From NCBI GenBank assembly GCA_034521495.1, contig JAXHMK010000006.1, positions 1 through 60,708 of the forward strand: 60,708 nucleotides of DNA, given 5' to 3'. This document shows positions 8,014-39,015 of this stretch, piece after piece. Source of the DNA: Balneolaceae bacterium (lineage in GTDB: Bacteria; Bacteroidota; Rhodothermia; Balneolales; Balneolaceae). Each line of letters begins with the position of its first letter. Position 1 is the stretch's first letter. Both the position numbers and the translations under genes were made by a program. A model generated the notes under the pieces. It saw only the letters and a list, made by a program, of their open reading frames with translations, had not been told where the DNA came from and searched no databases.

Positions 8014-8046
8014 AGATCCGCGAAGTTTTCAAAACTTCGCGGATCT
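8014..8046. terminator. Perfect 33-nt palindrome between convergent genes
   Basis: Two perfect 16-bp arms (AGATCCGCGAAGTTTT and its complement) are separated by a single C. It lies between the convergent GH18 and lpdA genes, where it could terminate both. It shares the central GTTTTCAAAAC with the palindrome at 56142-56174, although the outer arms differ. Confidence 0.7.
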
Positions 8047-37922: not shown

Positions 37923-38126
37923 ACTTACATTGCTTTTTGTTGTTTGAGATTAGGAATACAATTTACAAAAAGATGCAGCCAGAAAAAGAGAGGGTTTTTA
38001 TAAACGATGTAAGAGATCGTGGATATGGAGTCAGCGGATCAGTGTGAAGGGCAATGGATATTAATTCGATATAGATAACTCATCCGATGACTGCAAAGCT
38101 TGAAAAAACGATGCGAACTGAACCAA

Positions 38127-38206
38127 AGACCCGTCGGGTTTTCCCATCCACAGACAACAAATAATTCTAATGTTGATACACTTGCCACAAAAAACCCGAC
38201 GGGTCT
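38127..38206. repeat. REP pair upstream of the RAYT gene
   Basis: AGACCCGTCGGGTTTT (38127-38142) and its exact complement (38191-38206) are separated by 48 bases. Each arm holds its own small hairpin, ACCCG-T-CGGGT. The same two arms recur downstream of the transposase gene at 38927-39007. The remaining 200 bp between the amidohydrolase start and this pair show nothing further. Confidence 0.8.
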
Positions 38207-38273
38207 CAAGTCTTTCGTTTTTTAAGTGATTTTATTTACAATGCCATTTTGTAAATCATAAAAAAACATACGA

Positions 38274-38912
38274 ATGGGTAATAAATCTGTACCATTTGAA
38301 GCAAGTACTGTTTATCATATCTATAATCGTGGGCATGGAAGAAGCTTGATTTTTCGAGAGAAGAAAAACTATCAATTTTTCTTAAACAAATTTTCGAAAT
38401 ACATACTTCCTATAGCAGACATTTATGCATATTGCTTGCTGCCAAACCATTACCATTTTTTAATTCAGATCAAAAATGAAGATGAACTACGAAGGTTAGC
38501 TAAAAACAGATCCAGATATAAAAATCTGACAATGAATGGCAACTTTGTAAAATTTATTTCAGACACATTTGGTGCTTTTTTCAACTCTTATGCAAAATCA
38601 TTCAATAAAGTCTACAATAGACATGGAAGCCTTTTTGAAGAAAGTATAAAGAGAAAAGGTGTTGAATCTGATGACTATTTTACTACGATGATTCGATACA
38701 TACATTTCAATCCTGTTTTTCATGGAATGACATCTCATCCCGCCGAATGGCAATACTCTTCTTACCATGCTTGCATAACTGAAAAACCGACGAAACTAAA
38801 ACGAAATAGTGTTTTGGAATGGTTTGGAGGTAAAGAAGCTTTCTTAAAATTTCACCATACTATTCAGCAGGATGAAATTGAAAAGATCAGGCATTTGTTG
38901 TTTGATGATTAG
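38274..38912 (+). CDS. REP-associated tyrosine transposase (RAYT, Y1 HUH family)
   Basis: A 212-residue Y1 transposase of the IS200/IS605-related TnpA_REP type. It has the HUH-type motif LLPNHYHFLI (H59 and H61), a candidate nucleophile Y106 in NSYAKSFNKVYNRHGSLFEE, and the conserved IRYIHFNPV at 140-148 followed by WQYSSYHA. Such enzymes nick single-stranded DNA at REP hairpins and are domesticated, usually single-copy genes that mobilise or maintain REP sequences. The gene is bracketed by two identical inverted REP pairs, as expected for a RAYT with its cognate elements. Codon use appears more AT-rich than the neighbours, fitting horizontal origin. Confidence 0.92.
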   Translation: MGNKSVPFEASTVYHIYNRGHGRSLIFREKKNYQFFLNKFSKYILPIADIYAYCLLPNHYHFLIQIKNEDELRRLAKNRSRYKNLTMNGNFVKFISDTFGAFFNSYAKSFNKVYNRHGSLFEESIKRKGVESDDYFTTMIRYIHFNPVFHGMTSHPAEWQYSSYHACITEKPTKLKRNSVLEWFGGKEAFLKFHHTIQQDEIEKIRHLLFDD

Positions 38913-38926
38913 ATTTTTAGGTGGTG

Positions 38927-39007
38927 AGACCCGTCGGGTTTTCTTTTGAGAGAGACTTTGCCTTTATGTTCGTTTGAAAACTTTTCCACGGCAAACCCGA
39001 CGGGTCT
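38927..39007. repeat. REP pair downstream of the RAYT gene
   Basis: AGACCCGTCGGGTTTT (38927-38942) and AAACCCGACGGGTCT (38993-39007) face each other across 50 bases. The arms are identical to those upstream of the gene, and the spacers have similar length and share ATGTT followed later by a CCAC block. The second arm lies 8 bases from the stop of metK, so it may also end that minus-strand transcript. Confidence 0.8.
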
Positions 39008-39015
39008 TCTCTTCC

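Follow-up and report, generated by a model that had tools for sequence, protein, structure and literature searches.

The RAYT (TnpAREP) gene located between metK and an amidohydrolase gene in a Balneolaceae bacterium, together with the four repeat arms that bracket it, very probably constitutes a REPtron, i.e. a class 2 single-strand nuclease of the Y1 HUH type with its own low-copy REP family. The locus lies in contig JAXHMK010000006.1 (assembly GCA_034521495.1), of which the whole stretch of 60,708 nt was analysed and is referred to here as the window. This reading is directly supported by the fold of the protein, its catalytic motif, the arms being both paired and dispersed, and the absence of the insert in a relative; moreover, the two spacer subfamilies are each present both at the RAYT gene and elsewhere in the genome. 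Most likely, this lineage acquired the cassette once it had separated from the closest relative (G068), the insertion point being where loop and stem of a terminator-like hairpin meet in the intergenic region of metK and the amidohydrolase gene.

The RAYT protein

The RAYT gene (38274..38912, + strand) encodes 212 aa and carries both motifs of class 2 TnpAY1 proteins, i.e. HuH (H59-Y60-H61) and Y---NP (Y142-IHF-NP, within YIHFNP), followed by a C-terminal W-Q-Y-S-S tail. The HYH that a first-pass annotation had read at residues 59-61 was confirmed in the 212-aa translation, while its candidate catalytic residue, Y106, had to be replaced. The best sequence match among solved structures, although weak (E 0.014), was E. 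coli TnpAREP (4ER8), where residue 115, which we take to be catalytic, is aligned with Y142 rather than Y106; Y142 is thus the predicted catalytic tyrosine. Y106 is constant across the 10 alignment rows and sits in helix 91-113 of the AlphaFold model.

This model (pLDDT 85, from an input alignment of 10 rows) gave 4ER8 as its top Foldseek match (E 3.9e-7), and VIA-align superposed the two with a Z of 15.3 and an rmsd of 3.2 over 161 aligned residues, followed by IS608 with a Z of 8.6. Thg1 entries also appeared in the fold search, with lower scores. A Pfam search of the protein at E 0.001 gave no match, and the NCBIfam equivalog NF047646 (REP_Tyr_transpos), with 54.8 bits, did not reach its cut-off of 80, which weakens the assignment to that equivalog but not to the class. 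By motif, fold and repeat association, the gene product is therefore a class 2 Y1 HUH TnpAREP.

The gene has a G+C content of 32.4 %, compared with 43.1 % for the whole window. The idea that this AT-richness indicates recent transfer was rejected because the two other RAYT genes of the genome have the same composition (32.4 and 30.9 %). Likewise, no in-gene palindrome was found in 38274-38912, and a decayed in-gene REP was unsupported by folding (z 0.32). A promoter scan gave fewer matches than in shuffled sequences.

The REP arms and their family in the genome

Two head-to-head REP pairs bracket the RAYT gene at the positions that had been annotated. The left pair (38127..38206, - strand) comprises an outer arm (38127..38142, +) and an inner arm (38191..38206, -), which are complementary over 16/16 nt and separated by 48 nt; according to the ORF listing, it is placed between two divergent starts. 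The right pair (38927..39007, + strand) comprises an inner arm (38927..38941, +), 14 nt past the RAYT stop codon, and an outer arm (38993..39007, -), complementary over 15/15 nt with 51 nt between them. The stop codon of metK is 8 nt away from the outer arm, i.e. the pair now sits 8 nt 3′ of this gene. The two pairs had been called identical, which holds over 15 nt but not for the 16th base. Similarly, the mini-hairpin described for each arm (ACCC-GTC-GGGT) can form, but at -2.2 kcal/mol it is no more stable than in shuffled sequences (z -0.71), and such a weak single-arm hairpin counts against the REPtron reading. The complete pairs, as single strands, fold well beyond shuffles, with z-scores of -5.6 and -5.4 for the two strands of the left pair and -4.3 and -4.1 for those of the right pair. 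There was no match in Rfam.

The exact arm 14-mer GACCCGTCGGGTTT was found in 13 copies in this genome and its reversed control in none, which excludes chance; allowing up to two mismatches in a 15-mer, there were 26 matches versus five for the reversed control. In the 91 other family genomes, where arms were searched as the exact 14-mer only, a single copy was present in one (G073). Considering that the reversed control gave single matches in three of these genomes, the G073 copy is at chance level, and G073 also showed no RAYT match at E 1e-30. The first-pass annotation had named as an adverse outcome that the repeats would occur only at this locus and in no other genome with a related RAYT. 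The former is contradicted by their dispersal, while the latter holds for the exact 14-mer.

Ten head-to-head pairs could be laid out in the genome, two at the RAYT gene and eight elsewhere. Those with exact arms are located on C4 (220, 230 and 242 kb) and C16 (one, at 64 kb), with the 242 kb pair being a tandem copy whose outer arms are 153 nt apart, and those with one or both arms changed at C16 78 kb, C4 250 kb, C4 388 kb and C10 27 kb; a further degenerate partner lies near C9:232375. Five of the pairs away from the gene have spacers of 49-52 nt, and the two degenerate ones at C4 388 kb and C10 27 kb have spacers of 38 nt. The proposed genome-wide search for arm pairs at similar spacing therefore yielded dispersed copies, several of them near ORF ends, and supports the claim of a RAYT with its own cognate repeat family, since REPs of a genome-dispersed family flank the gene.

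As expected of REPINs, the pairs combine inverted REPs, a short spacer and dispersal, and their spacers are homologous between places, with scores above the null (99.9 % of null scores, 28). The spacer of the right pair scored 51 and 58 against C4 220 kb and 230 kb (C4:220356-220436 and C4:230694-230774), which scored 84 against each other (subfamily B), while that of the left pair, inverted, scored 50 and 52 against C4 242 kb (C4:241988-242170, in the opposite orientation; subfamily A). Members of two REPIN subfamilies in opposite orientations therefore flank the RAYT gene, which does not support the earlier view of the two flanking pairs as one repeated element.

One might regard the arms as mere terminators or structural repeats unrelated to the RAYT. 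One arm region did score as terminator-like, and five dispersed pairs (C4 220, 230 and 242 kb; C16 64 and 78 kb), read at five of the eight places, lie near the end of a long ORF, around 5-90 nt from its stop codon, these being ORFs rather than proven genes. However, the exact 14-mer occurs in only two of 92 genomes, with 13 copies in the one that harbours the gene and one copy, at chance level, in the other, and other RAYTs have matched repeats of their own; we therefore consider this explanation highly improbable. Three of the dispersed pairs on C4 and C16 (L001, L003 and L016) directly follow ORFs with a similar C-terminal domain, which in L003 and L016 is of the AQNYPNPFNPTT type, presumably a sorting domain, L001 having been read in part. 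Therefore, the spread of the pairs may partly reflect gene duplication.

A GT[AG]G tag 0-2 nt 5′ of the hairpin, as in canonical REPs, was absent in 19/20 arm contexts inspected by eye, and both this absence and the low copy number speak against the REPtron reading. GTG directly precedes one arm in 5/10 pairs and may belong either to the repeat or to the target.

If the REPtron reading is correct, a strand exposed as ssDNA, e.g. the lagging-strand template, would allow a REP arm or pair to fold; the protein would then bind the REP hairpin, nick beside it via Y142 and rejoin the ends, and REP pairs (REPINs of around 80 nt) could thereby be copied or moved to new intergenic places. Binding of ssDNA hairpins, nicking by tyrosine and rejoining are taken from work on TnpAREP (PMC8266576). 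By analogy, the RAYT protein may nick and join the arms and may be responsible for the mobility of the pairs.

The site without the insert and the arrival of the cassette

G068 is the closest relative, with 92 % identity for the amidohydrolase, 95 % for MetK and 86 % for a second amidohydrolase. Its site between metK and the amidohydrolase gene contains neither the RAYT gene nor the arms, only a terminator-like hairpin, and no exact arm copy was found in G068. An empty site, for which the first-pass annotation had proposed to compare related strains, is thereby present in this relative, and the contrary outcome, i.e. arms at the same place in a strain without the gene, was not seen. The G068 intergenic region tracks the window up to GAACTGAAYCA and again just before the metK stop codon. 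Where the window has the cassette, G068 has the second half of the terminator-like stem (-9.3 kcal/mol), which places the junction at the loop-stem border of the G068 hairpin, and the outer REP arms form the limits of the insert. On neither side of the cassette has the window kept this stem, the left remnant folding at -0.3 kcal/mol, and around 14 bp of the G068 terminator are apparently missing at the right junction, as judged by eye.

A global pairwise alignment of the window with the G068 site scattered its gaps and gave no single junction. From a MAFFT alignment with that site (L106) and a reading of the letters, the insert was placed at 38126..39008, with the left junction accurate to around 1-2 nt and the right one less sure because the flank there has diverged. 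This lineage-specific, REP-bounded insertion, together with a relative that keeps the hairpin, offers a concrete junction for study.

The amidohydrolase was found in 67/92 family genomes, and synteny was read for 30 of these loci, i.e. for our own and for 29 of the 66 others. metK was reached in 12 of these 29 loci, none of which (0/12) has a RAYT in between, while the remaining 17 have no metK within reach. G066 is rearranged at the window locus. The gene adjacent to the tandem pair of subfamily A (L005/L056, C4 242 kb) has a relative that adjoins the amidohydrolase in G066 (L107, C1), i.e. two REP-bearing places of our genome are neighbours in this rearranged one.

At two of the dispersed places, G068 also lacks the REP element: at C16:64713 it has a different hairpin, and at C4:241988 the intergenic region is too diverged to place the junction. 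C16:78080 is orthologous on one side only. It is possible that hairpins are preferred as targets, considering the metK terminator and C16:64713, the two places on which this suggestion is based.

How the cassette arrived can be weighed against these boundaries. The gene and its outer REP arms could form an autonomous, IS-like element whose ends are the arms and which transposes as a whole, as in IS200/IS605. The insert relative to G068 begins and stops at the outer arms, the same arms bracket the gene on both sides, and in 12/29 relatives' loci metK adjoins the amidohydrolase gene with no RAYT between them, all of which favours such an element. However, the gene is present as a single copy, its nearest paralogue sharing 49 % identity; the two ends belong to different REPIN subfamilies; the loss of around 14 bp of the G068 terminator at the right is not explained by a clean insertion; and, according to a survey of these genes, REPtrons do not transpose as units (PMC6006769). 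Furthermore, the closest RAYT in the 92 family genomes is only 51 % identical, and among 395 phylum genomes (E 1e-58), in which at most seven candidates per genome were scored, only the own genome and one at 47 % identity were found. Taken together, we consider unit transposition unlikely. The first-pass suggestion that the whole cassette moved as a unit is partly supported, in that the outer arms delimit the insert, but a single comparison cannot separate the routes, and there is no second copy.

Ordinary recombination or horizontal transfer might instead have brought in the cassette, and the nuclease would have seeded REP pairs on both sides before or afterwards. In line with this, the subfamilies of the flanking pairs have copies elsewhere in opposite orientations, and tnpAREP genes are described in the same survey as spreading horizontally without proven mobility of their own (PMC6006769). 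On the other hand, the left side has no foreign sequence outside the outer arm, the boundaries coincide with the arms, and no donor closer than 51 % was found in the 92 family genomes, nor any in the 395 phylum genomes with up to seven candidates each. We regard this route as a real possibility, tentatively held and somewhat short of an even chance.

In a further reading, the REPtron would be mobile in its own right: delimited by the outer arms, the RAYT gene and the four REP arms would have moved as one piece into the terminator hairpin, and a REP pair would have taken over the metK 3′ end. We consider this mobile REPtron distinctly doubtful. If true, however, it would fill a gap in the literature, since the survey reports no evidence of mobility for class 2 genes (PMC6006769); the junction therefore deserves a test.

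Related RAYTs and comparison with known systems

Searched with the RAYT protein, the own genome yielded six matches, i.e. the RAYT itself, one at 49 % identity (C19), one at 37 % (C9:433914) and three at 19-32 %. The C19 paralogue has GATCCGCGAAG pairs on both sides, and the exact 14-mer GATCCGCGAAG was found 41 times in this genome, 13 times in G068 and twice in G066, with no match for the reversed control; the C9:433914 paralogue has AGCCACCTTCAAGCGT common to both flanks. In addition, a palindromic pair at positions 8014-8046 of the window, AGATCCGCGAAGTTTTCAAAACTTCGCGGATCT, is a member of the REP family flanking the C19 RAYT. GATCCGCGAAG pairs also bracket a weaker Y1 match of 32 % (C9:688117; pairs at 1173-1205 and 1973-2005 and gene match at 1501-1839 of L020), so that a repeat family is not strictly tied to a single gene, which is a further point against the REPtron reading. 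At the C19 locus (L018, gene at 1501-2154), contig C67 of G068 (L166, L170 and L168) matches only part of the RAYT gene, which suggests that the place is conserved and that the copy there is older and decaying.

Matched flanking repeats are common among related RAYTs. An exact word of at least 14 nt is shared between the 500-bp flanks in 30/51, versus 59/2550 mismatched pairs, and some of these 30 words may be repeats other than REPs. The remaining 21/51 share no flank word at 14 nt, which again weighs against the REPtron reading. When genome contigs were searched, 17 loci were found (best 44 %), nine of which share a flank word of at least 14 nt, versus 13/272 mismatched pairs.

Among 50 of these 51 relatives, i.e. 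leaving out L149, which has no start codon, 16 carry an exact, in-frame, REP-like palindromic pair inside the gene, located between HuH and Y where readable (L024, L026-L030, L033, L034, L036-L039, L041, L044, L045 and L047). L023, broken by stops and read as 2 aa, has an in-gene palindrome that is not counted here, and L026 carries different repeats inside the gene and at its flanks. In a tree built by a quick method from 48/51 RAYTs (without L023, L049 and L149), our RAYT falls into a group of 22 that holds most of the in-gene palindromes, with nearby forks left open.

Compared with E. coli TnpAREP (4ER8; subclass 2.2), the protein shares the HUH-Y fold and the Y---NP motif at 14 % identity over 161 aligned residues. 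In both REPtrons the gene stands beside inverted REP pairs, which are also dispersed between genes, but there are far fewer copies here, and the GTAG tag and bulged stem of the E. coli REPs (PMC8266576) are both lacking. The IS200/IS605 transposases (IS608 and ISDra2) have the same Y1 HUH core and hairpins near the gene ends. Unlike them, the RAYT has Y---NP instead of Y---Q, and no near-identical gene copies (nearest paralogue 49 %), and its structural similarity to them is lower (VIA-align Z of 8.6, versus 15.3 for TnpAREP).

For the remaining class 2 proteins we relied on the subclass descriptions in the same survey (PMC6006769), where Bertels groups 2, 4 and 5 correspond to subclasses 2.2, 2.4 and 2.6. 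Subclass 2.4 likewise shows a variable insertion between HuH and Y, and the in-gene REP palindrome is called unique to it, although REP insertions of some 2.8 members are also mentioned. Palindromes like those of 2.4 occur in 16/50 relatives of our RAYT but not in its own gene, which moreover encodes NHYH rather than NH[IFV]H and YIHFNP rather than YIxNNP, has GSLF at the place of the W-motif (WQ) and possesses the C-terminal tail that 2.4 lacks, its repeats being without GT[AG]G.

Subclass 2.6 agrees in the YIH motif, the C-terminal SS motif, a HuH-Y distance of 84 (median of 82 in 2.6) and atypical repeats without GT[AG]G that have copies elsewhere. Nevertheless, of the signature NH[LIV]H, WQ, YIH[QN]NP and SS tail, the tail alone fits, since the RAYT has NHYH and YIHFNP and no WQ. 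Subclass 2.8, mostly from Cyanobacteria, shares NHYH (HYH), differs by one residue in YIHYNP and includes some members with a REP insertion, but its W[YH], proline-rich N-terminus and canonical GT[AG]G REPs are all missing here. Lastly, NHYH and the SS tail also fit subclass 2.1 (NHVH or NH[YF]H, W[EQ] or FQ, Y[IV][EH]LNP, SS tail, no REPs), while YIHFNP and the flanking REPs do not.

Judged by its motifs, the RAYT protein thus fits none of subclasses 2.1, 2.4, 2.6 and 2.8 fully. The sequence family had been proposed as undescribed, which applies to the GACCCGTCGGGTTT repeat itself as far as literature searches show, but not to its kind, since the combination of a RAYT with REPs is already described in the survey (PMC6006769). 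The repeat lacks the usual GT[AG]G tag, and a RAYT with such a REP represents a new candidate recognition pair.
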